Source: Acaryochloris sp. IP29b_bin.176
GTDB lineage: Bacteria > Cyanobacteriota > Cyanobacteriia > Thermosynechococcales > Thermosynechococcaceae
Direction of reading: 5' to 3'
DNA: 44,596 nucleotides
NCBI GenBank assembly: GCA_028285315.1
Contig: JANQPU010000176.1
Coordinates: 1-44,596 of the forward strand
The notes under the pieces were generated by a model, which had not been told where the DNA came from, searched no databases, and saw only the letters and a program-made list of their open reading frames with translations. The translations under genes were made by a program, and so were the position numbers. This document shows positions 14,597-44,583 of this stretch, piece by piece. Position 1 is the first letter of the stretch; every line of letters begins with the position of its first letter.

Positions 14597-16345
14597 ATGC
14601 TCGCCAAATTTATCCGCTTCTTGGGCTCAATTAAGTTAGCCGTACCAGTACTAGGTGCGATCGCAAGTATCTTAATTTGGGCCACGTTCTATGAAAGTAA
14701 AGTTGGGTCTCTCGTGGTCCAACAGCAGATCTATAAGAGTCCTTGGTTTGGGGCTTTAATGTTTCTGTTGGCGGTGAATTTAGGGGTCTCTACCCTATCC
14801 CGTTATCCCTGGCGAGGGCCGCGAAAAGTGGGTTTTGCCCTTGCCCACTTAGGGTTGATCGTACTGATTGCGGGCTCTGCGGCTGTGATTCACCTGGGTG
14901 TGGAAGGACTGTTGCTGGTTCGCACGGATCAGCCTGCCAACCATTTGGTGCGGGTAGAGGGTGAACTCCTGGAGGTGATGGATGACCAAGGCCAAGTTCA
15001 GCAGGCTACGGTGATGGTGGCACCTGACTATGTCATCTCACCCAAACAATTTGCCGGATTGACCTTACTGGACTATGACGAAAATTCCGTCGAAACGGTT
15101 GAGTATCGGGAAGGGGGTGCTCAAGATAATTCGGCAGTGCGGTTAGTATTGAGTAGCGATCGCATGGATCGAACCTTCGATCAGTGGCTGTCACCTGCAG
15201 CTGAAACGGTGGATTTAGGACCAGCCCAACTGGAATTACGGCTTGCTGCAAATGAGACGGCACTCCAACAACTGTTAGCGGATCCCACCCAAAAGCAAAC
15301 CCATCAATCTGGAAATTTGCTGATAAGGGTGGGGGACCGAGAAACCACGATTGCGATTGAGGATTTGCGCCGCCATGATGCCATCATCAATGACATCCAG
15401 GTTCATCTACTCAGTGTATGGCCAGACTTTCGGTTGGATGATCATAATCAGCCAATTACGGCTTCTCAGGATTGGCGGAATCCAGCCCTAGAAGTGTCAG
15501 TTACCCAGGCCGATCACCAAGAACGCTGGTTTGTCTTTGCCCAAGCCGAGCCGATCTTGGCTGGGAATGAAAGCTTACTCGATCTGAACTGGGAATACCA
15601 AGTTCCGCCTCCCCCAGCAACCGACTATTTTCGGGTAGTGGTGGCGAATCAACAACTGTACTATGCAGCCCGCTCTTCCAAGTCCTTTTCCTCAGGACCG
15701 TTGGCAATGGATCAAATGGTTCAGCCGGGCTGGGCAGATTTCCAGATCACCCTGGCAGACTGGCTCCCCCATGCCGAGGTAGTCCGAAACCGTCTACCTG
15801 CACCCCCTGGAGTTGAAGGAGTTCCGGCATTGCAAATTGTCTCAACCAACGGGCATCAGCAGTGGCTGACCTGGGGGAAATCGGCACTCATTACAGATGG
15901 CTCTTATTCGATGATGGCAGCGTTTGGCCCTCGAATGATGGCCTTACCCTTTGGGATTGGTTTGGATGACTTTATCGTTGAGCGGAATGAAGGTAGCGAA
16001 TCGGTAGCCATGTGGACCAGCCAGATTTGGATTGAAGATCTCCAGGGAGAAGCGACCCAACAACGGTCAGTTTGGATGAATCATCCCACCTGGTATCAGG
16101 GATGGAAAATTGCCCAAGCCTCCTGGAATCCGGGCGATTTGAACCAGTCCACGCTACAAGTCAAACGCGAACCCCTATGGGTAACTGCGTTGACCTGGAG
16201 TGGGGCCTTACTGACCGTATTGGGAATTGGCGTCATGTTCTATGGCCCTACCCTATTGAAAAAACGGGCAGCGGTGCCGGAAAAACTAACTGAGCCTATC
16301 GCATCTGATCCAGCCCCCATGCCCCTTGCAACTCAGGATAGATAA
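14597..16345 (+). CDS. System II cytochrome c maturation protein, ResB/Ccs1 family
   Basis: A 582-residue ResB-like protein. Three membrane helices lie in the first ~100 residues (LAVPVLGAIASILIWATFY; ALMFLLAVNLGVST; FALAHLGLIVLIAGSAAVIHLG, with a candidate haem-ligand histidine). A large extracytoplasmic domain follows (~115-520), with the family-like NHPTWYQGWKIAQASW near its end, then a last helix (~527-550). With ResC/CcsA it transports haem and attaches it to CXXCH motifs. Its stop overlaps the next gene's start by one base (TAATG). It lies upstream of genes for proteins with twelve c-haem sites in total, which it probably serves. Confidence 0.85.
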   Translation: MLAKFIRFLGSIKLAVPVLGAIASILIWATFYESKVGSLVVQQQIYKSPWFGALMFLLAVNLGVSTLSRYPWRGPRKVGFALAHLGLIVLIAGSAAVIHLGVEGLLLVRTDQPANHLVRVEGELLEVMDDQGQVQQATVMVAPDYVISPKQFAGLTLLDYDENSVETVEYREGGAQDNSAVRLVLSSDRMDRTFDQWLSPAAETVDLGPAQLELRLAANETALQQLLADPTQKQTHQSGNLLIRVGDRETTIAIEDLRRHDAIINDIQVHLLSVWPDFRLDDHNQPITASQDWRNPALEVSVTQADHQERWFVFAQAEPILAGNESLLDLNWEYQVPPPPATDYFRVVVANQQLYYAARSSKSFSSGPLAMDQMVQPGWADFQITLADWLPHAEVVRNRLPAPPGVEGVPALQIVSTNGHQQWLTWGKSALITDGSYSMMAAFGPRMMALPFGIGLDDFIVERNEGSESVAMWTSQIWIEDLQGEATQQRSVWMNHPTWYQGWKIAQASWNPGDLNQSTLQVKREPLWVTALTWSGALLTVLGIGVMFYGPTLLKKRAAVPEKLTEPIASDPAPMPLATQDR

Positions 16346-18039
16346 TGAATCAACTGAAATTTTTATGGGGACTCTGTCTCGCCTGTGCCTTGATGGTCAC
16401 CCCTTTGAGTCAATGGCAGCCTACAACCCAAACAGCGGTTGATACGCTGGCGGTCCAGCTGGATGGTCGCAAAAAGCCGTTAGATACGGTGGCGAGAGAA
16501 ACGGTGGCGACTATTCATGGGTCAGGGCAATATCAGCTGACGAGTGGTGAAGTTTTAGATGCTCCACAAACCTATTGGTCCCTTTGGCTGAACAGTCGGG
16601 ACTGGAATGATGAACCCTTTATTCTCGTCAACTATCGTCCCCTCAAGACCCAATTGGGACTGCCCTTAGAGCAAAAGTATTTTAGCTTCTCTACTCTGAT
16701 CAATTCCGAGTTAGGTGGCATCTTGCAAAAAGCCCATACCCAACAACTGCAAGAGCAACCCCTAACGCGGGATGAACGAGAAGCCTTCACCCTCGAAGAT
16801 CGCCTCAATTTAATGTTGGATACGGTTGGCAGCCAAACCTTGCCGCTAGTGCCCTATCCGAGCGATATCAAAGGCGCTTGGGTAGGAATTGCGGAAGCAC
16901 AACAGCTTTATCCCCCTGAGATCGCAGCCAGGATTCAAACTGAGTTTGAGCGGCTAAATCAGCAGTATCAAGAGAATGGTGATGATTTAGGTCGTTTGCA
17001 GGATACGACCGCCATGTTGCAGAAATCCTTAGCTGACTTGAGCCCTGAGATTTATCCAGATTCGGCCACCTTACAACGGGAAGTGTTTTTCAATTATTTC
17101 CATCCCTTTGGGAAAGCTTGGCAACTGTATGCGATTGCATTCCTCACCCTCCTCACCAGCCAACTCATTCCTACCCTCAATTTATATTGGAGCGGCATGG
17201 GACTATTCCTAGGGGGCATATTAGTCCAAATCTTTGGTTTTATCCTGCGCATGCAAATTGCAGGCCGCCCTCCAGTTACCAATATGTATGAATCCGTGGT
17301 GTGGGTCGGCTTTGGGATTGCGGCTTTAGCCTTTTGCTTTGAGTTACAGACCCGAGCCCGATCCTATCTACTAGCGGCGGCACCGCTGGCAGTGGTTTGC
17401 CTCCTGCTAGCAGATAGTCTGCCTGCCGTTTTAGATCCGAGTATTGAGCCTTTGGTGCCTGTTCTGCAGGATAACTTCTGGCTCAGCATCCATGTCCCCA
17501 CGATTACCCTCAGTTATGCCAGCTTTGCCCTGGCCATGGGCTTGGGACATCTAGCATTGGTGCAATATTGGCGACAACCGCAGGGAGGTTCAACCGCAAC
17601 TATCTTGTCCCGTTTAAATACCCGTGTGATTCAAGTGGGGATATTGCTGCTGACGGCGGGCATTATTTTGGGCGGTATCTGGGCGCATTTTTCCTGGGGA
17701 CGATTTTGGGGTTGGGATCCAAAAGAGACCTGGGCTTTAATTGCCTTACTCTGCTACTTGGCTCCAGTCCATGGTCGCTTAGCGGGCTGGTTAGGACAAT
17801 TTGGTATGAATGTTGCCAGTGTCTTAGCCTTTAATGCCGTGTTGATGGCTTGGTATGGTGTCAATTTTGTCTTGGGAACCGGACTACATAGCTATGGGTT
17901 TGGCACAGGGGGCTCGGAATTGCTGATTGCCAGTATCGTGGGCCTGGATACTTTTTTTGTCCTAGCAACTATCCTCCGCCATCGTTCACGCCACGATGCC
18001 TCTGTTCCCGTGCCGGACGTCCAGACTGTAGATGCATAA
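16345..18039 (+). CDS. System II cytochrome c maturation protein, CcsA/ResC type
   Basis: A 564-residue protein. An N-terminal hydrophobic segment is followed by a soluble extracytoplasmic region to about residue 250 (LDGRKKPLDTVARETV is typical of the extended type), then about eight membrane helices. The haem-handling WWD-type motif WGRFWGWDPKETWALI is at about 451-466. Flanking histidines are visible in LSIHVPTITLSY and YLAPVHGR. Usual cyanobacterial CcsA is only about 340 residues and lacks this N-terminal domain, so this pair looks like a second, specialised System II set. It overlaps resB by one base. Confidence 0.88.
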   Translation: MNQLKFLWGLCLACALMVTPLSQWQPTTQTAVDTLAVQLDGRKKPLDTVARETVATIHGSGQYQLTSGEVLDAPQTYWSLWLNSRDWNDEPFILVNYRPLKTQLGLPLEQKYFSFSTLINSELGGILQKAHTQQLQEQPLTRDEREAFTLEDRLNLMLDTVGSQTLPLVPYPSDIKGAWVGIAEAQQLYPPEIAARIQTEFERLNQQYQENGDDLGRLQDTTAMLQKSLADLSPEIYPDSATLQREVFFNYFHPFGKAWQLYAIAFLTLLTSQLIPTLNLYWSGMGLFLGGILVQIFGFILRMQIAGRPPVTNMYESVVWVGFGIAALAFCFELQTRARSYLLAAAPLAVVCLLLADSLPAVLDPSIEPLVPVLQDNFWLSIHVPTITLSYASFALAMGLGHLALVQYWRQPQGGSTATILSRLNTRVIQVGILLLTAGIILGGIWAHFSWGRFWGWDPKETWALIALLCYLAPVHGRLAGWLGQFGMNVASVLAFNAVLMAWYGVNFVLGTGLHSYGFGTGGSELLIASIVGLDTFFVLATILRHRSRHDASVPVPDVQTVDA

Positions 18040-18089
18040 TTCAGGGATGATATAGCCCTACTGATACACCCCCATTAGGAAACTAAACG

Positions 18090-19016
18090 ATGGCCGTTCT
18101 CACACCGGAAGAGGTACAAGCTAAAGTTCAACAAGGCATTTCTTTACAAGGGGCAGAACTCAGCAATATCAACTTGCAAGGATACTGCCTAGATGAAGGC
18201 CACTTCCCGCAAGCCTATTTACGGGTTGCTAATTTATCCGGGGCTTCCTGTAATCGGGCCGACTTTACCGAAGCCATCCTGGTCTTATCCACTCTTACAG
18301 GGATTAGCTTGCAGGATGCTCTGCTGACGGAAGCCCAGCTGACGTCTGCCCGTCTGGAGTCAGCCAACTTGATGGGCATTCATGGGGTGAAGTTAAAGCT
18401 GCATGGAGCGCTTCTGGATCAGGCGAATGCAGCGACAGCCATCCTGGAAGCAGTCGATCTGGCCGAAGCAACGGGGCACTATGCCTGTTTTCGCGATGCC
18501 ATTTTAATCAAGGCCGATCTGTCCCAGAGTGATTTCAAGGGGGCCAATTTCAATCGGGCGAAGCTCAATGATGCGAATTTGAGTCAGGCCCAATTCCCAG
18601 AGGCCATTTTTGCCCATGCCCGTTTGGAGCGATCGCAATTTGCACAGGCCGATTTACAAAAAGCAGATTTTACGGGTGCTGATTTAATCGGTAGTCACTT
18701 TGAGCAAGTCAATCTTAAGGGCGCACAATTACAGCAAGCTAGCTTAGATCACGTATCCTTAGTCCGGGCCTGTCTGGAGTCAACCAATTTTGAACGGGCT
18801 TCCCTGTATAGTGCCAATTTGGAACAGGCCGATTTAACTGGAGCCATTGTTGCTCAAACGGATTTCCGGGAGGCCAATCTGGAAAAGACGCAACTGCATA
18901 GCGTTAATTTTGCTGACAGCATTGTATCAGGTGCCCTCTTCACTGATGCTCAAGGGCTATCGAATGAGCAAAAGCAACTGCTCCGAAAACGAGGCGCTTT
19001 AAATATTCCCAACTAA
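18090..19016 (+). CDS. Pentapeptide-repeat protein
   Basis: A 308-residue protein made almost wholly of A(D/N)LXX-type repeats from about residue 20 to 285 (for example GANFNRAKLNDANLSQAQF). These fold as a right-handed square beta-helix. No signal peptide or catalytic domain. Cyanobacteria have many such proteins and few have known roles. It begins 50 nt after the ResC gene and may be in the same transcript, but there is no evidence that it takes part in cytochrome assembly. Confidence 0.9.
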   Translation: MAVLTPEEVQAKVQQGISLQGAELSNINLQGYCLDEGHFPQAYLRVANLSGASCNRADFTEAILVLSTLTGISLQDALLTEAQLTSARLESANLMGIHGVKLKLHGALLDQANAATAILEAVDLAEATGHYACFRDAILIKADLSQSDFKGANFNRAKLNDANLSQAQFPEAIFAHARLERSQFAQADLQKADFTGADLIGSHFEQVNLKGAQLQQASLDHVSLVRACLESTNFERASLYSANLEQADLTGAIVAQTDFREANLEKTQLHSVNFADSIVSGALFTDAQGLSNEQKQLLRKRGALNIPN

Positions 19017-19575
19017 TTTAGTTTTTACACAATTGATTGAATATTTCTTCAGGGTTCTTAAAATATGCTTTTCTGCATGCAATAAATACATAAACCCCAT
19101 GCAAAAGGTAGTGACTAGATAGTCTCAATGGTATTCATTGATACGATCCAAAGAATCATTATTTTTTACCTTGTAATTCATATTTTTCAATAGCAGCTAA
19201 ATTCTACTTATGAATATCTGAATATCAATTTTCATGGCTTTGGGTTAGTTCTTCTCATAGCCCAAAAGCATCTCAATGCAGATAGTTCTTTATTATTGGG
19301 TCGGTATTGCGATCGCAGGTAATTAAGCTTATCTTTCATCCTATTCACTTTTAAGGCATGGGAAAGTTGAGTCTGTTTAATTAGAACCCGTAAACCCTAT
19401 TCAGGAGCCATTGTTAGGCTTGATTTGTCATTTTTATTCCGTGTCTGAGGAAAAGAAATTCACCTCAATTGCCCCAGTTATTCCTTGCTCACCTTAAGCT
19501 TCAGCACAACTCAAGAAGAGTCCTTTTCATATTTTCATTGAGTGCCTCAACCCAATATCTTCAATAGGTAAATCT
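19017..19575 (+). other. 559-nt gene-free region, probable long leader of globin operon
   Basis: A+T-rich, no supported ORF. It contains the NtcA-type promoter (19131-19172), an imperfect hairpin GCTTTGGG (19237-19244) with CCCAAAAGC (19261-19269), and one HIP1 octamer near 19310. If transcription starts near 19179 the globin mRNA has a leader of about 400 nt, long enough for a structured regulatory RNA or a second promoter. Confidence 0.5.
19131..19172 (+). promoter_or_regulatory. NtcA-type promoter upstream of the globin/multihaem genes
   Basis: GTATTCATTGATAC (19131-19144) fits GTA-N8-TAC; exactly 22 nt later is TACCTT (19167-19172), fitting TAN3T. The predicted start is near 19179. This is the same geometry as the ntcB promoter in this window. 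It faces the double-globin gene, 397 nt away, with no other gene between. Chance occurrence cannot be excluded because both motifs are short. Confidence 0.6.
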
Positions 19576-20607
19576 ATGGCCTTACAAGTAGAACTTCTCG
19601 AAAATAGCTTTGAGAAGATTAAACCTCAAGCCCATGAGTTTATTCCCAGTTTTTATAGCAATTTATTCACCGACTATCCAGAGGTTCAACCGCTTTTTGC
19701 AGGAACCAATATGGAAAAGCAGGGAGCCAAACTCCTGAAATCCCTAGTCTTGGTCATTGACAATCTTCGCAAACCAGATGTGCTCAGTGATGCTTTGAAA
19801 GGACTTGGGGCACGACATGTCAAGTATGGTGCTTTACCAGAGCATTACCCATTAGTCGGGTCAACCTTGCTCAAAACATTTGAACAATATCTGGGAGAAG
19901 CCTGGACTGGGGATGTGCAGCAAGCTTGGGTAGATGCCTATGGGGCCATCACGACCATCATGCTGGAAGGAGCCGATTATTCGGAAGCAGATATTCAGCT
20001 CAAGCCATCATCAGAAACTCCATCGGCAGAAGTGAACTCACCATTGCCAGTGGAACTTCTCGAAAATAGCTTTGCCAAGGTGAAGCCAGTAGCCACTGAG
20101 TTTGTCGATCGCTTCTACGATAACTTATTTACTGACTATCCCGCCGCAAAACCTTTATTTGCGAATACTGACATTAAGCAGCAGGGCAAAAAGCTTTTGC
20201 AATCCCTAGTATTGGTCATTGACAACCTTCGCAAACCAGATGTGCTCAGTGATGCCTTGAAAGGACTGGGGGCACGGCATGTCAAGTATGGTGCCTTACC
20301 AGAGCATTACCCTTTGGTCGGCAATACGCTCCTCAAAACCTTCGAGGAGTTTCTAGGCGAAGCTTGGACAGATGATGTCAAACAAGCCTGGGTCGATGCC
20401 TATGAAGCCATCAGCACCATCATGTTGGATGGGGCCGATTACTCTCAGACAGATTTAGATCTTAATTCGACTCAACCGATGCCTCCCACACCCGAACCCA
20501 TTAGCTTTTCTAGTGAAGTATCGGGGACTGATCGACCGACAGGATTGTTATTAGGTCTGGCTGGTGGTGGCATTATTGCGGTCATTCTTGCCATTTTGTT
20601 GGTCTAA
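19576..20607 (+). CDS. Tandem double globin with C-terminal membrane anchor
   Basis: A 343-residue protein with two flavohaemoglobin/Vitreoscilla-type globin domains (about 1-137 and 156-291) and a terminal hydrophobic helix (about 322-343, LLLGLAGGGIIAVILAILLV). Each domain has the proximal histidine in ARHVKYG (His81, His235), followed by PEHYPLVG, a CD-corner phenylalanine in PLFA (Phe41, Phe195) and a likely distal glutamine in KQG/QQG (Gln49, Gln203). Residues 56-95 and 210-249 are identical, so the domains arose by duplication. No reductase domain is fused. It probably binds O2 or NO at the membrane, facing the cytoplasm, close to the cytochromes encoded downstream. Confidence 0.92.
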   Translation: MALQVELLENSFEKIKPQAHEFIPSFYSNLFTDYPEVQPLFAGTNMEKQGAKLLKSLVLVIDNLRKPDVLSDALKGLGARHVKYGALPEHYPLVGSTLLKTFEQYLGEAWTGDVQQAWVDAYGAITTIMLEGADYSEADIQLKPSSETPSAEVNSPLPVELLENSFAKVKPVATEFVDRFYDNLFTDYPAAKPLFANTDIKQQGKKLLQSLVLVIDNLRKPDVLSDALKGLGARHVKYGALPEHYPLVGNTLLKTFEEFLGEAWTDDVKQAWVDAYEAISTIMLDGADYSQTDLDLNSTQPMPPTPEPISFSSEVSGTDRPTGLLLGLAGGGIIAVILAILLV

Positions 20608-20625
20608 TCCTTTAGGGCAGTTGTA

Positions 20626-21273
20626 GTGGCCAAGACGCAAAGATCATTTTTGAGCCTTTCAGCTCTATTCAATGTCAGAAATACTGTGATTGTGCTGTGT
20701 TTAATCTTGATGGGTTGGTTGGGAGCCGCCTTTGCCTTAGATCACAAAACGATCTTTTTGCCTGGCGTAACGTCTAATGGGCATCTCCTGCTTGAAGCTT
20801 CCTGTGCCTCTTGCCATGAAGGTTTCAAGCCTGTGAGTAATGAAACCTGTATGCGCTGTCATGAGGCAGAAATGGCCACGGATGCCCATGGACCCAAGAA
20901 ATTTCGTGATCTGCGCTGGGCCGCTGAACTAGAGAAGTTGGAGGTATTAACCTGTACCACTTGCCACAACGAACATGTGCACATGTTTGGTCGAGGGGTA
21001 CATCTGAAACCGGATCTCTGCATGATTTGCCATGAAGGCATTATTCAAGGTGAATTAGCGAGTCATAAGGGTTTCTCACCGGATGGATGTTGGACGGCTG
21101 GTTGCCATAATTTCCATGACCATCGCAGCATATCAACAGGCTTCTTACGCCAAAACATGGGCCAAGCGGATATGTTGCCCAAGCCTGCGTTACCGACCCG
21201 AAGTATTCAGCCTGAACTCACAGCACCGCCTCAACCGGACTTAGGCAAGGAGTTCATAGGAGGGCGAGCATGA
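20626..21273 (+). CDS. Membrane-anchored pentahaem c-type cytochrome, one CX4CH site
   Basis: A 215-residue protein starting with GTG, 18 nt after the globin stop. One membrane helix (about 18-37, NTVIVLCLILMGWLGAAFAL) anchors it; the rest is extracytoplasmic. Haem sites: CASCH (60-64), CMRCH (75-79), CTTCH (110-114), CMICH (132-136) and the unusual CWTAGCH (155-161). Additional histidines (HVHMFGRGVH, HNFHDHRS) can supply distal ligands, giving bis-His haems as in cytochrome c3-like electron carriers. The C-terminus is proline-rich. It overlaps the next gene by 4 nt (ATGA), so the two are made together. Confidence 0.88.
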   Translation: MAKTQRSFLSLSALFNVRNTVIVLCLILMGWLGAAFALDHKTIFLPGVTSNGHLLLEASCASCHEGFKPVSNETCMRCHEAEMATDAHGPKKFRDLRWAAELEKLEVLTCTTCHNEHVHMFGRGVHLKPDLCMICHEGIIQGELASHKGFSPDGCWTAGCHNFHDHRSISTGFLRQNMGQADMLPKPALPTRSIQPELTAPPQPDLGKEFIGGRA

Positions 21274-22052
21274 AGCAGTTGGTTCTGGGAGGGCTACTGG
21301 TGTTGGTGCTGTGGAGTGGGTGGCCTGATTCCGCTGTGGCTGTTGATCAGGCTCAGCTCCAATCCATTAATCAAAGCTGGTCACAAAGTGCCCATGCGCT
21401 GGCCAATGTGAACTGCTCAAGCTGTCATCAAAATAATTCCGCTAAACAGGTGATTCAGCAGCCCACCCACGAGAGCTGTCGATCTTGTCATGAAGCGCAG
21501 GTGGATACCTTTTTACTGGGCAAGCATGGTATTCGCTTGCTGGAAGGGCAACCAGCTTTAACACCAGCCTTAGCCCATTTACCGATGCAGGCTGCTGCTC
21601 ATGACAAGCAAATGAACTGTAATGCCTGTCATGATGTGCATTCAGTGAAAACCCTCCCAGCCTCCGTTGATTCTTGTCTGACCTGTCATCAGGACACCCA
21701 TTCCCTGAATTACAAAAACTCTAGGCATGCTCAATTACTGCGAGAAGAGGGGGCACTCCCCCGTCCTTCAACCGCTTCAACGACTTGTGCCACTTGCCAT
21801 CTGCCCCGACAAACATCGGCATCGGGGACGGTGATGGTCAACCACAAAAATACCTATACGTTATTGCCGCGCGATCGCATGGTGAAAGAGGTCTGTATGA
21901 ATTGCCACGGCATGGAATTTGCCTACAACAGCATTTTTGATGATGACTTAGTGGAGTCCAATTTTGCCCGACCCCCCACCTTATCGATGGACACTCTGAA
22001 AATGGTGCGTGCTCTAGAAAAACAACGGTCGGGCAATTCCACGTCAGAGTAG
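21270..22052 (+). CDS. Hexahaem c-type cytochrome, secreted
   Basis: A 260-residue protein with a signal peptide (about 1-24) and six CXXCH sites: CSSCH (49), CRSCH (70), CNACH (117), CLTCH (136), CATCH (173) and CMNCH (209). NYKNSRHA and the stretch RDRMVKEVCMNCHG recall the C-terminal half of hydroxylamine-oxidoreductase-like multihaem proteins, though it is shorter and has no CXXCK active-site motif as in NrfA. Translation is coupled to the pentahaem gene by an ATGA overlap. The likely role is electron transfer or a redox reaction on a small nitrogen compound; the substrate is not shown. Confidence 0.88.
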   Translation: MKQLVLGGLLVLVLWSGWPDSAVAVDQAQLQSINQSWSQSAHALANVNCSSCHQNNSAKQVIQQPTHESCRSCHEAQVDTFLLGKHGIRLLEGQPALTPALAHLPMQAAAHDKQMNCNACHDVHSVKTLPASVDSCLTCHQDTHSLNYKNSRHAQLLREEGALPRPSTASTTCATCHLPRQTSASGTVMVNHKNTYTLLPRDRMVKEVCMNCHGMEFAYNSIFDDDLVESNFARPPTLSMDTLKMVRALEKQRSGNSTSE

Positions 22053-22103
22053 TCCATTCCCTATCTAACGAATTGGATGCATGTCATTGAGAGGAGACAC
22101 AAG

Positions 22104-22754
22104 ATGAATTTGACACGAAAATGGTTAGGCAATTTGCGTTCACGAACCCTTGCCTTTTTGGCCCTAGCTGCAGCGATTTGCTTTACCGCTGTAGCTTGCA
22201 GTGGGGGGGCTGAATCCCAATCTACTGGAGGGGTTAAACCTGAATTGGTTGCGGATTATATTCATACCGCTTTAGCCTCAGACCGCACTGCCTATACCAA
22301 GCATGTGGTGAACCGCGCCAAAAAACTAGAGGGGAAGCCTAAGGAAGATGGAGTTTTGGAGGTAGAAGCCACCGAAGGCTGGGAAAACAGTAATGGCATC
22401 CCCCTACCCGCCCAAATGTTTCGTCTCGGGTCCGAAATTGCATCCGAAGACAGCGCCTTCACCTACAACCTGATTTCAACTTGGTATATTAACGACGCTC
22501 AAGGTCCTAAGAGTGAGTTTGAGAAAAAAGCAATGGCAGAAGTTGAGAAAACTGGAGAGCCTTTCAGAGATTATCAGGAGGTTGGTGGGAAACAATATTT
22601 TTCTGCCCTCTATCCAGACAAGGCAGTAGCTGAAGCCTGTGTCACTTGCCACAATACCCATCCTATCCATAAGGAACGGTATCCCGATAAGGTTTTCAAG
22701 ATGGATGACGTCATGGGAGGTGTGATGATCAATATTCCTTTGGAAGGTGCTTAG
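22104..22754 (+). CDS. Tll0287-like (DUF3365) monohaem c lipoprotein
   Basis: ATG 22104 is preceded by GAGAGGAG; an upstream ATG at 22077 has no such site. The 216-residue product has a lipoprotein signal with TAVAC at 28-32. The rest fits the Tll0287-like/DUF3365 domain, a PAS-like fold carrying covalent haem c; the site is CVTCHNTHP (from residue 179). Such domains occur as stand-alone haem proteins and as sensor inputs. Here there is no kinase or other output domain, so it may be a small electron carrier or gas-binding protein on the membrane, matured by the adjacent System II proteins. Confidence 0.85.
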   Translation: MNLTRKWLGNLRSRTLAFLALAAAICFTAVACSGGAESQSTGGVKPELVADYIHTALASDRTAYTKHVVNRAKKLEGKPKEDGVLEVEATEGWENSNGIPLPAQMFRLGSEIASEDSAFTYNLISTWYINDAQGPKSEFEKKAMAEVEKTGEPFRDYQEVGGKQYFSALYPDKAVAEACVTCHNTHPIHKERYPDKVFKMDDVMGGVMINIPLEGA

Positions 22755-22803
22755 ATCCTTGCCATAGCACAATTTTCAAAGACTGATGACGTTCTGTGGG
22801 GGA

Positions 22804-22843
22804 AGGGGATTGCGCCACCAGTCGATCCCCTAGAACATTTTTT
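22804..22843 (+). terminator. Terminator-like hairpin after the haem lipoprotein gene
   Basis: AGGGGAT (22804-22810) pairs with ATCCCCT (22825-22831) across a 14-nt loop, followed six bases later by six T residues (22838-22843). The offset T-run makes it a weak candidate; it may attenuate transcription into the cytochrome b gene. Confidence 0.4.
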
Positions 22844-22897
22844 ACATCTTCGTGGGGACGAACCCATCGTTCAAAGTCCTGTCACTCTTGTTGAGCT

Positions 22898-23506
22898 ATG
22901 AAGCCCAAGTTTTCCACCCTTATTATTCTGACACTGGTTGTAGCAGCCATTTTGACCCCCTTTGCTTTGAGTGGGGTATACATTCCGTTGTTGCGAGATC
23001 GCAACTTCAATGCGTTGATCGTTCTTCAAACGGATCTCTACAAGCTAATTACTGGCTTTGTTGTTCTGGCCTTAGTCTTCTTTGAACTCGTGCTAGCACT
23101 CCGTAAGCGAGGGCGGCGATGGAAAATTGCGGTGCCGGGCTCCATTATGCTGTGGCGCAGTCTGCATATCTTTGTGGGGGTAGCACTAATAGCCACCGTT
23201 TTGCTCCATACAGGCGGAGCCGTTGGCGACAACTTCAATGCAATATTTCTGTGGGTTTTCTTTGGAGTTGCCCTATCTGCCCTAATGGGAGTTGTGGCGG
23301 AGACAGGAATTTTAGAGTCTTCCCAGAAATATTTTGGTTTGGTTCCTCAAAGCTGGCATGGTTTGGCCAAGCGTTTACCTCAGGTCTCAAAGGGGCCGCT
23401 CATTCGCAAACTTCGTTTGATTTGGCTATCAACCCATATCATCCTGGTCAGTATGTTTTGTGTCATGTTGGGCTTTCATATTTTCTTGGCCTTTTATTTT
23501 CAATAA
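22898..23506 (+). CDS. Di-haem b type membrane cytochrome (b561-like)
   Basis: A 202-residue protein with about five membrane helices (about 7-27, 48-68, 87-105, 115-135, 174-200). Two helices carry histidine pairs 14 residues apart: His90/His104 (LHIFVGVALIATVLLH) and His180/His194 (THIILVSMFCVMLGFH). That layout, two haem b stacked across a four-helix core, is typical of cytochrome b561-type and related quinol or ferric reductases. As the last gene of the block it would provide the route between the quinone pool and the multihaem c proteins. It is separated from them by 143 nt and a weak terminator. Confidence 0.75.
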   Translation: MKPKFSTLIILTLVVAAILTPFALSGVYIPLLRDRNFNALIVLQTDLYKLITGFVVLALVFFELVLALRKRGRRWKIAVPGSIMLWRSLHIFVGVALIATVLLHTGGAVGDNFNAIFLWVFFGVALSALMGVVAETGILESSQKYFGLVPQSWHGLAKRLPQVSKGPLIRKLRLIWLSTHIILVSMFCVMLGFHIFLAFYFQ

Positions 23507-41666: not shown

Positions 41667-42727
41667 TTGGTTGGAAAGTTATAACAGATAAGGCTTTTGG
41701 GAGTTCCAGGCAACTTCTGAAGGTCTATTATATTGTCAATAAGATGTTAAATATGGGCTGTTAAGGGTTGTTTGGGCTGTAAATTTACCCCGTTTTTTAC
41801 CCCGCTATGAAAGTATCCCTCTTTTGTTATTCTGGCCAGATAAAATCTGTAATGACGATTTTTCGTTATTATTCTTCGGCAAAAAATATGAGAATAGACG
41901 AGAAACAATCAAGAATTTATCCTCCCCCTAAAGTGACAAAAGAGGGACAAGTTGCGGATGCGACTGCTGTAATGAATCGGTTGAGGAAACATACTGGCTA
42001 GACGAGCCAGTTGGATTTGGTGATGACTTTGCAATAGCAGTATCAACAATTGCAAGGTCAAATATTGGCTTTCGCTTAGGTACGCACGTAGAACTTTTTG
42101 GTAGCATATTGGCAACGTATTTTGGATAGGGTAGTCTGTTTCGGCCACCCTATTTTCTTTGAAATCACACTGTCTAATCTACTGCTGACTCTGGTTCCAA
42201 AGTGCCTTGTCATCCCCAAAGTGTTTGCAGACAGAGTCTGAAATGCATGTTTTTCGTAGAAGACAGGTCTTATCAAACAGCCTCTTAGTGTTTTGTAAAA
42301 ATTCCTCTCGTTCTTGAATAATGGAAATGTATAGTTTGTCAGCATGCAATCTATACATTTCCATTATTTTTGCTCATATCTGTAATTTTAAACCCTTAAG
42401 ATTACAGATAACGCTACTATATTCACTTTGGAAAGATAAGACCATAATTCTAGAACTTTAGGCGGAATTTAAGGAATATAGTCATTATTAAGTCAAAATA
42501 TTAATACTAGGGGAAATAAACTTTCATTGGTATCTAATTAATAACTAAATGAATTTTAGTCAATGCTTTATAAAATCTGTTAAACGGTAATCCTACTGGG
42601 GCACTAGTAGTTCAAAAAAATAAGTCCCTGAATCTCTTAATAACGTTCTATTCACTCTTGATGAAATAGATAGATAACTTGATATACTTTTCCCTGTATC
42701 AATATTTACAATGAGGTTGTATAAATA
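41667..42727. other. A+T-rich, gene-poor region downstream of tRNA-Val
   Basis: No gene I can support. A 64-codon frame at 41807-42001 (end KQSRIYPPPKVTKEGQ) has no family likeness. Minus-strand frames at 42076-42364 overlap the large hairpin and are unconvincing. AGAGGCTGTTTGATAAGA near 42277-42294 (read on the minus strand) recalls some IS ends, without a transposase. The region is unlike the preceding 41 kb in base use. Confidence 0.4.
42317..42368. repeat. 18-bp perfect inverted repeat with 16-nt loop
   Basis: AATAATGGAAATGTATAG (42317-42334) and its exact complement (42351-42368), followed on the plus strand by TTTG. It could be a terminator, the hairpin of a small RNA, or the end of a mobile element. 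No gene ends close by on either strand. Confidence 0.85.
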
Positions 42728-43460
42728 GTGACTTCTACGGTTGACTTACCATTTTCTGAAATTCTTTTAAATCTCAGTGAAAAAATTTTCAATATCACTT
42801 TTATGCATCCTATAATTTCTTCTCTCAACGGAAGCAACAATATTTTGTCAAAAGATACATTACTCAAAGTTCGAGATAATTTTTTTATACAAGATTATTA
42901 TTATTTGGTTTATGCACATAAAGTCCCAAAATTTCTTTTGGTTGACTCAACTAAGAAAGATGAATTAAGAAAGAAAATATTAAGGTTGAGAGAACCTTAT
43001 GAAAGGCAAAGACATAACCCAATACAACTACAATGCAACCCTTTCATACCTGAGGCTACGTTGCTTATTAACTTAATTCTTCATCTTCTAGCTACAGTTA
43101 GTCATATTACAATGTCCGATATCCAGCCTAATTCCATAATTAGTGAATATATTCAATTTAAAATTAAATGTGCTCTTGAGGGTGAGGCAGAAACAATAGT
43201 TTCCAATCTACCTTGCTTATATATATTCTCGATTTTGTGAAATTTTAAATAATAGCCAATATGATAACGATCCTGAACTGTCAGGATGGATCAATATTCT
43301 TAGAGATTCAAATAATGAAGCTACATATGAGCTGTATAGGTCTTTATGTGATGAATTGCCTAGAGATATATTAGAAAGATACGAAATTAGACTAAAAGCA
43401 ATATTTCTTCAAGCAAGTAGATTAGAGTACCAATTTCTAAATTCACTGTTGACACACTGA
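42728..43460 (+). pseudogene. TenA/thiaminase-II-like gene, split by a frameshift
   Basis: A GTG start at 42728 opens 170 codons, ending at 43240. The reading then continues in the +1 frame (SRFCEILNNSQYDNDPELSG ... ASRLEYQFLNSL) to TGA 43458-43460. Rejoined, it gives ~244 residues, the length of TenA proteins. Family marks are QDYYYLVYAHKV (Asp56), LPCLYIY with the catalytic-type cysteine (Cys163) and LEYQF with the conserved glutamate. The break lies at a TATATATA tract (43218-43225); one more TA would restore the frame. TenA hydrolyses thiamin breakdown products. Divergent and A+T-rich, so probably acquired. Confidence 0.7.
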
Positions 43461-43479
43461 AACTATCTGGCAAAGATAC

Positions 43480-44583
43480 TCAGCAGCATGAGTAACCACT
43501 CATGGTAATAATAGTCCAACCCTGTGAATTTAGACAACTGATATAAGCATCATCAAATTTATGGTTTGGTACGAATTTGAAATTATTTTCACTCTCTTGA
43601 GGTATTTCTCTTCCTTTGGAGTTCAAGTCTTCTATAATTAAACTTAAAGTGTGACGTACTGCTTTTTCATAATCTTCGGATGGAATGCGAAAAACAATTT
43701 TATCTCCATCTAACAATGCCTTATATAGTGGAGATGGCGATTTATGAATTTTGCTGCTAATTTCATTAGGTTGACTACTATCACCCGATAATTTTCCATA
43801 CCTTTTATCGAATTCAAGTACAGCCTTTTCATGCAGAGCAAGTTCCTGAGAAAGAAATTTATCATCTTCAATCCTTTCAAAGATGAACTTGCTGTTTTTA
43901 TGAACTTGTTTAGAAGTCTCTTTTAATCCTTGGGTTGCTATATCATGTTTTCGATCTTCAAGATTGCCCAAACGACCTTCAAGAGACTTCAAATATTTTA
44001 TAAATTCCTTTCTATCACCTTCTAACTTCTTGAGCACCAGAGCTTTGGTTTTTTCTAATTCTTTTCTATCATTTTCTAATTCTTTGTACACCAAACTTTT
44101 TGTTATTTCCAATTCCTCCTGCATTAGCTGCATTAGCTTTTTATAGTCATTAGAAATATCTTGAATAAGAGCTTGGTTATTCTTATTTAAAGCTAACAAG
44201 ATCTCTTCATTCTGATCTCTATTATAATCAATCAGAGTATTTATTTTTTTCCTCATGCTTTCAAATCTAAAAACCTGAATTATCATTCCAGCTACTATGC
44301 TAGCTAGCATAGTAGCTGGAATGAAGTCAGTTATTTTTTCTGAAAACAAAAAATTATCAGAAATATCTCTTGAATTATTTATTTTTGAGTTATGGTTATA
44401 TATAAAAAAATTTATAGAAACAGTAGATGCAACAATAATTCCAAAGAAAGCTGCAATTCTTAAAATGGCACTTAGTTGAAATATAGGATTTGGAGTCTTA
44501 AGAGGCCATTTATAAAGTAAGTGTGAAATAGGGTCTAGATGTGTGGATTGTAGGTTTAGGTTCAAAGTGCTGTGCTGAGCCAA
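43480..44583 (-). CDS. Membrane protein with long coiled coil, unknown
   Basis: Two membrane helices (about 38-62 and 87-105) are followed by a coiled coil (about 110-270) and a ~95-residue C-terminal domain with a final CC. Inside the coil an 18-residue unit is repeated, compare KSLVYKELENDRKE with KALVLKKLEGDRKE. I recognise no family. The listed start is TTG 44583; the frame stays open to the window edge at 44596, so the true start may lie outside. Helix 2 is encoded by a perfect 42-bp palindrome. A+T-rich, like the neighbouring TenA-like gene, with which it converges (19-nt gap). Confidence 0.6.
   Translation of the reverse strand: MAQHSTLNLNLQSTHLDPISHLLYKWPLKTPNPIFQLSAILRIAAFFGIIVASTVSINFFIYNHNSKINNSRDISDNFLFSEKITDFIPATMLASIVAGMIIQVFRFESMRKKINTLIDYNRDQNEEILLALNKNNQALIQDISNDYKKLMQLMQEELEITKSLVYKELENDRKELEKTKALVLKKLEGDRKEFIKYLKSLEGRLGNLEDRKHDIATQGLKETSKQVHKNSKFIFERIEDDKFLSQELALHEKAVLEFDKRYGKLSGDSSQPNEISSKIHKSPSPLYKALLDGDKIVFRIPSEDYEKAVRHTLSLIIEDLNSKGREIPQESENNFKFVPNHKFDDAYISCLNSQGWTIITMSGYSCC
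44283..44324. repeat. Perfect 42-bp palindrome without spacer, inside a CDS
   Basis: The left 21 bp (from TCATTCCAGCTACTATGCTA to G44303) are exactly complementary to the right 21 bp, centred between 44303 and 44304. It codes for IPATMLASIVAGM in the second membrane helix of the coiled-coil protein. Long spacer-free palindromes are unstable in many bacteria, so its presence in a gene is unusual. Confidence 0.97.

Follow-up and report, generated by a model that had tools for sequence, protein, structure and literature searches.

What might a cyanobacterium do with a compact run of eight genes, seven of which are haem-related? The question is raised by a stretch of Acaryochloris sp. IP29b_bin.176 DNA (44,596 nucleotides, below called the window), which is one whole 44.6-kb contig of a 5.35-Mb genome (438 contigs, 87% complete). 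Eight plus-strand open reading frames (ORFs) had been described in an initial annotation made from the sequence alone; all of them were found again in place, and Pfam and NCBIfam scans bore out the haem-related nature of seven. We found strong support, from comparison of genomes, for regarding five of these genes (encoding a globin, the multihaem cytochromes C5 and C6, the lipoprotein Tll and the membrane protein CytB) as a real conserved module and one functional unit, and good support, from the DNA in front of the globin gene, for its membership of the nitrate/nitrite assimilation regulon in many hosts, including this genome. With moderate confidence, we read the module as a transmembrane haem relay with a tethered globin of the nitric oxide (NO) dioxygenase type, serving nitrite/NO handling. 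The five genes are as follows:

19576-20607, plus strand: double globin ending in a transmembrane tail, with no sign of a signal peptide (two Pfam Globin stretches)
20626-21273, plus strand: C5, predicted N-terminally anchored pentahaem cytochrome with four CXXCH motifs and one CX4CH motif (in 50/50 aligned rows)
21270-22052, plus strand: C6, predicted exported hexahaem cytochrome with partial likeness to HAO-like, MtrA-type and NrfA proteins (six CXXCH, 52/52 rows)
22077-22754, plus strand: Tll, Tll0287-like (sCache_heme) monohaem lipoprotein (Pfam Tll0287-like, 3.3e-20)
22898-23506, plus strand: CytB, predicted five-helix membrane cytochrome b with H90/H104 and H180/H194 (the four His in 48/48 rows)

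Composition can be read directly from the sequences. The Pfam matches in the eight-gene run were ResB, Cytochrom_C_asm, Pentapeptide, two Globin stretches, Cytochrom_c3_2 (in two proteins) and Tll0287-like. The haem count proposed earlier proved correct, with twelve c-haem sites (four CXXCH and one CX4CH in C5, six CXXCH in C6 and one CXXCH in Tll), two globin sites and, judging from the four conserved His of CytB, two sites for b haems. The motif counts are identical in every aligned row, window included, which argues that these sites are not due to chance. Rows below set lengths were dropped from the alignments, which kept 50 rows for C5, 52 for C6, 50 for Tll and 48 for CytB; three further alignments (A1-A3), from which some near-duplicate or short rows were omitted, held 44, 47 and 45 sequences.

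A scan with the single C5 sequence as query and one genome per species, which reaches close relatives only and has C5 present by selection, gave 52 loci, all under cyanobacterial names. The carriers include Moorena bouillonii PNG, Leptolyngbya sp. PCC 7375 and Xenococcus sp. PCC 7305, many of the carrier genera being, as we understand, marine, mat or symbiotic, and the nearest named relative is an Acaryochloris metagenome bin with 94% identity in C5. Wherever the contig permits, the order is the same and on one strand, with the globin before C5 in 46/46 loci and with C6 (51/51), Tll (48/48) and CytB (46/46) after it. For unselected counts, 386 cyanobacterial genomes were drawn evenly, with that of the window among them. 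C5 is present in 4 of them and C6 in the same 4; CytB occurs in 6, two of these being decayed copies, and the special CcsB-like protein encoded upstream of the module was found in those 6 and in one marginal case. In the decayed copies (genomes G054 and G211, stretches L073 and L074), a broken CytB stands beside genes for CcsB, the membrane thioredoxin, ChaN and pentapeptide repeats; both stretches lack globin, C5, C6 and Tll, and both genomes as a whole lack C5 and C6. Because of these shared counts and decayed copies, we conclude that the parts of the module come and go together. Genome co-occurrence and gene order were checked for homologues lying mostly apart, which is not the case, and the idea of a single functional module, put forward when the locus was first described, is borne out.

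The genes of the run are spaced as follows: ResB and CcsB overlap by 1 base and C5 and C6 by 4 bases, globin and C5 are separated by 18 bp, C6 and Tll by 24 bp, and Tll and CytB by 143 bp, and a gap of 559 bp (19017-19575) lies between the pentapeptide-repeat gene and the globin gene. Since a conserved promoter sits in this gap, the eight genes are probably two transcription units. The run as first described thus keeps its composition, and is to be amended in that it probably falls into two units and lacks beside it partner genes known from other loci. The promoter (19077-19172) is of the nirA type and consists of three elements:

19077-19102, plus strand: LysR-type (NtcB-like) block ATGCA-N7-CAT-N8-TGC, the same block standing at the same place in nirA promoters
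19131-19144, plus strand: NtcA-type site GTATTCATTGATAC (GTAN8TAC, the consensus given in the accessible part of PMC3898017)
19167-19172, plus strand: -10 box TACCTT (TAN3T), 22 bp after the NtcA-type site (the architecture given in the same part of PMC3898017)

A canonical NtcA-activated promoter has GTAN8TAC about 22 bp ahead of a TAN3T -10 box (PMC3898017, accessible part), and the window fits this definition, with a gap of 22 bp. Across the loci, GTAN8TAC was found upstream of the globin in 30 of 44 non-redundant regions (base shuffles predict 5.6) and was followed 20-24 bp later by TAN3T in 21 of the 44 (1.7 expected); control regions upstream of ORFs in these loci gave 71/499 and 20/499. 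The second block, composed of ATGCA/GCAT/TGC half-sites, lies about 22-30 bp further upstream of the NtcA-type site, and the composite site was present in 16/43 globin-upstream regions vs 3/462 controls. A palindrome, TGCAN9TGCA, was considered as the site of a separate regulator and rejected, being part of the LysR-type block.

NIR_SIR genes were found in 20 carrier genomes and the DNA upstream of them was read. At the 20 nirA loci, the site was strict and accompanied by the -10 box in 12 and relaxed in 2, with the upstream block equally spaced, and 6 showed none; the exact composite site nonetheless precedes nirA in L105, L110 and L112, and L101, L109 and L119 stay without it. Ten sulfite-reductase loci gave two strict NtcA-like sites, about 590 bp upstream and with no block, and eight gave none. 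A weight model was then built from 11 nirA promoters, with the module excluded from training and the near-identical L107 dropped; all 11 training genes are NirA according to BLASTP (61-100% identity to the NirA of L104, at most 27% to Sir). In the version reported here, in which the spacer is free by 4 bp either way, the model separated 46 module regions from 461 controls with an area under the curve (AUC) of 0.94, 37 of the 46 exceeding the 99th percentile of controls and 28 the highest control, and the window's region ranked second of 46 with a score of 37.6. Passes among scrambled module regions amounted to 1/46 when reversed, 15/460 when block-shuffled and 7/46 as reverse complements, some of the last facing a divergent ResB. 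With fixed spacing, the AUC was 0.90 and 24/46 regions exceeded the 99th percentile; the window was missed (-10.6) owing to a spacer that exceeds that of the nirA set by 2 bp. Some ResB-upstream regions also score as nirA-type (L019, 25.5; L046, 23.4), and that of the window does not.

In 25 whole genomes, the exact composite pattern occurred as 19 sites in 11 genomes and the reversed pattern not once. The sites lie before nirA (8, named by BLASTP and in three of the eight also by NCBIfam), a NarK-type nitrate/nitrite transporter (3), the module (5; globin 4, ResB 1), a porin (1) and in two other places. The window's genome has the exact site twice, before nirA and at 19077-19144. The porin is of the SLH/OprB type (L148:1501-3066; 'iron uptake porin' in NCBIfam) and is possibly an outer-membrane entry for nitrate/nitrite.

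Other regulator boxes had no such support in the 44 regions: FNR/Dnr-like boxes numbered 2 (0.8 expected) and strict FNR boxes 1, NorR-like boxes 14 (16.3 expected), and CRP, HcpR-like, HLR1, Fur-like and NsrR-like boxes 0 each. The LysR-type block is most simply an NtcB site. As the NtcB motif we take TGCAN5TGCA, for which no published source was found in the literature searched; the name of the factor is tentative because exact copies of this motif are rare in module regions, a looser TGYAN5TGCA being found in 12/43 of them vs 7/462 controls and not in the window. Another LysR factor, PacR, has been reported to bind nirA (PMC12052932, accessible part). The module promoter therefore resembles that of the nirA operon (NtcA plus a LysR-type activator) in its blocks and their spacing, and differs in driving a haem-protein unit instead of nitrate-assimilation enzymes.

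The best-surviving alternative takes this promoter as a sign of general NtcA control under nitrogen starvation, the module being a respiratory or redox-balance chain without a nitrogen-oxide substrate. It is helped by the very many NtcA binding sites (PMC3898017, accessible part) and by the fact that no catalytic haem was recognised in the module. However, the module shares its LysR-type block, distance included, with the promoters of nirA and of the NarK-type transporter, and of the 19 exact sites in the 25 genomes 16 precede nirA, the transporter or the module, which looks narrower than NtcA control; we regard this alternative as unlikely, ranking it first among the competitors.

The globin speaks for a role in nitrite/NO handling. 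Over 85 domains, its pocket residues are nearly invariant (F in 85, Y in 82, Q in 84 and H in 85), the last three being presumably Tyr B10, Gln E7 and His F8. The globin domains carry the same pocket residues as flavohaemoglobin, HGb, VHb and NO dioxygenases. Among NCBIfam models the protein comes closest to NO-inducible flavohaemoprotein (153 bits vs a cut-off of 432), and no FAD/NAD reductase domain was found on it with Pfam or NCBIfam, so that it is not a flavohaemoglobin fusion; unlike flavohaemoglobins, it has 1-5 tandem domains and mostly a C-terminal membrane tail. Among the 46 globins preceding C5, some cut by contig ends, 19 have one domain, 23 two, 2 three, 1 four and 1 five, and 37 end in a hydrophobic tail. 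The double globin of the window would accordingly be tethered to the membrane on its cytoplasmic face. The tandem globins with membrane tails include proteins of five (L018:7406-9769), four (L031:8006-9964) and three domains (L029:2109-3668), and the nearest relative, L010, has three domains vs two in the window. CytB is followed by a further globin, which is soluble and has a conserved tail of the TFYEWLDLYGE type, at L022:4126-4656, L024:14215-14898, L025:7036-7605, L030:13277-13810 and L059:4066-4596.

Of the two multihaem cytochromes, C5 has a hydrophobic N-terminal segment in 50/50 rows, and a search of the PDB with its profile gave nothing meaningful. The C6 profile matched, best first, an HAO-like protein (6h5l, 2.8e-8), 6r2q_A (2.2e-6), a cytochrome c555 construct (3.3e-6), NrfA (2j7a, 7.1e-6), Alternative Complex III subunit A (6.9e-5) and octahaem nitrite reductases (0.005), each match covering only a part. 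We take 6h5l to be a kustc0694-type protein and 6R2Q to be the MtrABC complex entry; 6r2q_A is labelled cystathionine beta-synthase, a label that misfits a chain matching multihaem cytochromes. The best NCBIfam match of C6 is DmsE decahaem (4.8e-11; 42.6 bits, below the cut-off of 192.2). Although parts of 6h5l, NrfA and octahaem nitrite reductase are matched, C6 is unlike members of this superfamily in having six CXXCH in 52/52 rows, no CXXCK, about half the length and no recognisable active site; it thus falls outside NrfA (pentahaem, with CXXCK or an equivalent catalytic haem), outside HAO and the octahaem proteins (eight c haems with an active-site haem) and outside MtrA/DmsE (ten haems). 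Other multihaem families match about as well, and we regard C6 as a multihaem cytochrome of mixed affinity, its link to HAO/NrfA being suggestive only.

These likenesses bear on a second alternative, in which excess photosynthetic electrons are exported across the periplasm or out of the cell and the globin only senses O2 or NO. An N-terminally anchored C5 and an exported C6 could indeed make a wire on the p-side, and C6 does match DmsE and 6r2q_A. On the other hand, no outer-membrane porin-cytochrome pair could be recognised in the 21 neighbour families that occur in at least four loci (12 examined by Pfam, the others by eye), two proteins with eleven c haems between them would seem short for crossing the envelope, and control of the nirA type is unexpected for such a function. 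We consider export improbable. From the roles proposed initially, namely reduction or detoxification of NO, hydroxylamine or nitrite, or else electron export, the promoter in front of the globin thus supports the nitrogen-oxide side, and the partial MtrA/DmsE matches of C6 lend export weak support.

Tll is a clear member of its family (73.4 bits vs a cut-off of 24.1), with CXXCH and a lipobox-like Cys41 each in 50/50 rows, and a PDB search with it gave nothing meaningful. As a stand-alone CXXCH member it resembles others of the Tll0287/sCache_heme (DUF3365) family (PMC12889525, a preprint, accessible part), and it is unlike them in belonging to a fixed module with multihaem, globin and cytochrome b genes. 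It is likely a redox partner because the stand-alone sCache_heme member tested binds NO weakly (same accessible part of PMC12889525).

For CytB, no family could be named. The window's copy has no Pfam match at E<=0.1 and no NCBIfam match, some relatives reach the DUF4405 (best 7e-6) or cytochrome b561 (0.0012) models, a PDB search with the CytB profile gave nothing meaningful, and Foldseek with the AlphaFold model (five long helices, mean pLDDT 79) gave no match at E<=0.001. Its two H-x13-H pairs probably hold two stacked b haems, a spacing that hints at a bc1-like or ferric-reductase-like arrangement. The positive loops would place H90/H180 on the cytoplasmic side and H104/H194 outside. The membrane order suggested at the outset, with the globin in the cytoplasm, CytB spanning the membrane and the multihaem proteins beyond it, fits the predicted signal and membrane segments. 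Quinol, proposed at the same time as the source of electrons for CytB, might feed such a chain.

Relatives of two components were found in another setting, namely plasmid operons of Proteobacteria and Bacteroidota with the order FAD/2Fe-2S reductase - small cytochrome b ('iron reductase') - cytochrome c3 (records L090-L099), where NAD(P)H on the inside should be the source of electrons. Ten plasmid records were examined and the c3 protein was aligned from nine, the hosts including Bradyrhizobium BTAi1 (pBBta01), Sphingobium, Variovorax, Spirosoma and Alteromonas; a literature search on these operons gave nothing related. C5 is homologous to the plasmid c3 proteins in its first half only (hhalign probability 98.0, E 2.2e-13, 68 columns), with the PG..S.GH start and first haem sites in common. 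CytB matched the plasmid cytochrome b weakly (66% probability over 28 columns), with the same double H-x13-H pattern, and plasmid tblastn with C6 and CytB gave no match. Like these operons, the module has a multihaem c protein adjacent to a small cytochrome b with two H-x13-H pairs. The operons differ in carrying an FAD/NAD/2Fe-2S reductase and in a c3 second half unlike C5, and beside them neither a globin nor a C6, a Tll0287 protein or a System II pair is annotated; the inner place, held there by the reductase, belongs to the globin in the cyanobacterial module. A metal or hydrogenase context was seen in 7/10 records: copper or heavy-metal genes lie nearby in six (Rhizorhabdus, Sphingobium, Spirosoma, Variovorax, Caulobacter and Sphingomonas) and a hydrogenase in Alteromonas; Pontibacter has only an RND efflux pump, and Bradyrhizobium and Methylocystis have neither.

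It is from these operons that a third alternative draws its force, in which metal uptake or tolerance would be served by reduction of Fe(III) or Cu(II) outside the membrane: they repeat the C5 start and a CytB-like protein next to the FAD/2Fe-2S reductase, with metal genes nearby in 6/10 records. Against it, the reductase was found neither among the 20 window proteins scanned nor among the conserved neighbours (Pfam for part, the others by eye), no metal gene was recognised among those neighbours except haem-binding ChaN in 6 loci, the Fur-like box is absent from all 44 globin-upstream regions, the promoter is of the nirA type, and the CytB link is a weak one; metal handling appears quite improbable. 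Oxidation of sulfide or hydrogen feeding the photosynthetic chain via C5/C6 has on its side the hydrogenase next to the Alteromonas operon and an H2S-oxidising system that was reportedly among the ideas voiced in the 2017 paper on the Tll0287 structure, but no gene for either oxidation was recognised among the conserved neighbours (Pfam for part, the rest by eye) and the promoter is of the nirA type, so this can be set aside as highly improbable.

Nitrite/NO handling is favoured over electron export, metal reduction and sulfide oxidation because of the nirA-type promoter together with the NO-dioxygenase-type globin and, less firmly, the part-likeness of C6 to HAO/NrfA. The localisation, haem content, activation, reaction and direction that follow are what we infer for such a system. 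NtcA and a LysR-type, NtcB-like factor would switch on globin, C5, C6, Tll and CytB under nirA conditions, that is with ammonium absent and nitrate/nitrite present. CytB would carry two b haems across the membrane, meeting the anchored C5, C6 and the Tll0287-type lipoprotein outside and the tail-anchored globin inside. The most likely job would be dealing with nitrite and with the NO formed as nitrite accumulates, the globin, with its Tyr/Gln/His pocket of NO dioxygenases, turning NO into nitrate on the cytoplasmic face. Two versions, which are not strongly separated, can be formulated. In version (a), the globin would be the enzyme that oxidises NO to nitrate and the relay would supply it with electrons across the membrane, which fits because the globin has the only recognisable ligand-binding pocket. 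In version (b), electrons from inside would let the relay reduce nitrite/NO on the outer face, with the globin mopping up NO, which fits because it agrees with the membrane field and with the likely direction of the related plasmid operons.

Several observations weigh against the nitrite/NO reading. As regards regulation, NtcA has very many binding sites (PMC3898017, accessible part) and a promoter says when, not what; 9/46 module promoters fall below the nirA-model threshold, the exact composite pattern is missing from 14/25 genomes, and exact TGCAN5TGCA occurs in 3/43 module regions vs 2/462 controls and not in the window. As regards chemistry, the conserved non-motif His (six in C5 for five haems, in 50/50 rows; six in C6 for six haems, in at least 51/52) would allow all C5/C6 haems to be bis-His carriers, with no evident catalytic haem. 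The likeness of C6 is not specific to enzymes of nitrogen oxides, extending to MtrA-type, cytochrome c7-like and Alternative Complex III proteins, and its AlphaFold model (mean pLDDT 54) was not used, leaving the fold not modelled. The stand-alone sCache_heme protein of P. putida bound neither O2 nor NO strongly (PMC12889525, preprint, accessible part). As regards electron flow, moving electrons inward to the globin would oppose the membrane field, the membrane tail is absent in 9/46 globins, no FAD/2Fe-2S/NAD(P) reductase was found among 20 scanned window proteins or recognised among the conserved neighbours, and metal genes often surround the closest operons with a C5-like protein found elsewhere.

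The three genes upstream of the 559-bp gap are:

14597-16345, plus strand: ResB/Ccs1-like half of a putative second, dedicated System II synthase (Pfam ResB, 2.2e-16)
16345-18039, plus strand: CcsB/CcsA-like half with a long N-terminal extension (Cytochrom_C_asm, 3.5e-31)
18090-19016, plus strand: pentapeptide-repeat protein (Pfam Pentapeptide, 1e-47)

Both halves of the pair exceed the Pfam cut-offs for ResB and Cytochrom_C_asm and thus belong to System II, and the translation contains WGWDPKE, which we take to be the haem-handling motif of these synthases. With 157.2 bits vs a cut-off of 187.6 for TIGR03144 (CcsB), the window's CcsB is a divergent family member, not an equivalog. It bears about 285 extra N-terminal residues, and this 285-aa part was detected in 7/386 cyanobacterial genomes (6 strongly, E<1e-78, and 1 marginally, 26% identity, E 2.6e-4). 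The same genome also encodes an ordinary Ccs1 (462 aa, contig C388) and an ordinary CcsA/CcsB (340 aa, contig C150), which bears out the earlier suggestion that the module has a System II pair of its own. ResB or CcsB was seen in 31/52 loci, and in 16/21 among those of at least 20 kb; their placement varies between divergent upstream, same-strand downstream and same-strand upstream (window and L010). ResB and CcsB would form a second synthase attaching the c haems of the module, and the CX4CH haem of C5 is possibly what requires it. Dedicated System II synthases are known, e.g., Wolinella NrfI and CcsA1. Like them, this second ResB/CcsB pair stands beside unusual c-haem proteins; unlike them, its ResB and CcsB are split genes, and the possible unusual client is a pentahaem protein with CX4CH. 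Pentapeptide-repeat proteins recur near the module in other genomes, on either strand, and the family is common in general.

Among the neighbours, a membrane thioredoxin lies within 1.5 kb after CytB in 33 of 47 loci with CytB (the thioredoxin cluster of 34 loci mixes in ordinary thioredoxins, and 33 hold the membrane type), and a Rieske protein with a twin-arginine, lipobox-like start adjoins CcsB in 19 of 27 CcsB loci and occurs in one locus without CcsB (e.g., L013:4066-4515 and L015:18893-19348; two tandem Rieske genes stand beside CcsB at L019:3082-4290). The former is missing beside the window's module and the latter beside its CcsB; possible counterparts are encoded elsewhere in the genome (Rieske, 48% identity, C202; thioredoxin, 38%, C137; ChaN, 54%, C438). 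Pfam confirmed Thioredoxin, Rieske and ChaN for the neighbour representatives. The other Pfam-checked neighbours were ABC transporter, AAA/HTH, HEAT, PAS, LysR and unassigned proteins, and no substrate-indicating gene was recognised among the Pfam-checked conserved families. Elsewhere in the window, the GC content drops to 32.6% at 42001-44000, vs 43-52% in the remainder.

The families are known singly; their assembly, co-conservation and promoter were not found described in the literature searched. No published description of the module turned up among the matches listed, in literature that was mostly non-subscription, and within this scope the first impression that no such cyanobacterial system had been described holds. 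Cyanobacteria are generally regarded as poor in multihaem cytochromes and as assimilatory users of nitrite. A bolder and doubtful, if conceivable, proposal is that some oxygenic cyanobacteria have a nitrite-regulon respiratory chain, in which a two-haem CytB passes electrons to an eleven-haem relay reducing nitrite/NO outside and a row of membrane-tethered globins re-oxidises escaped NO to nitrate inside. If true, organisms credited only with nitrite assimilation would have a loop for nitrogen-oxide respiration or protection, complete with a cytochrome-assembly machine of its own. The module also puts the long-unexplained haem proteins of the Tll0287 type into a context and suggests which client a second System II synthase might serve, and the promoter match makes membership of the regulon directly testable in the named carrier strains. 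A fixed five-gene haem unit with its own putative maturation system and a promoter of the nirA type, found in dozens of species, points to an unrecognised branch of nitrogen-oxide metabolism or NO defence in cyanobacteria.

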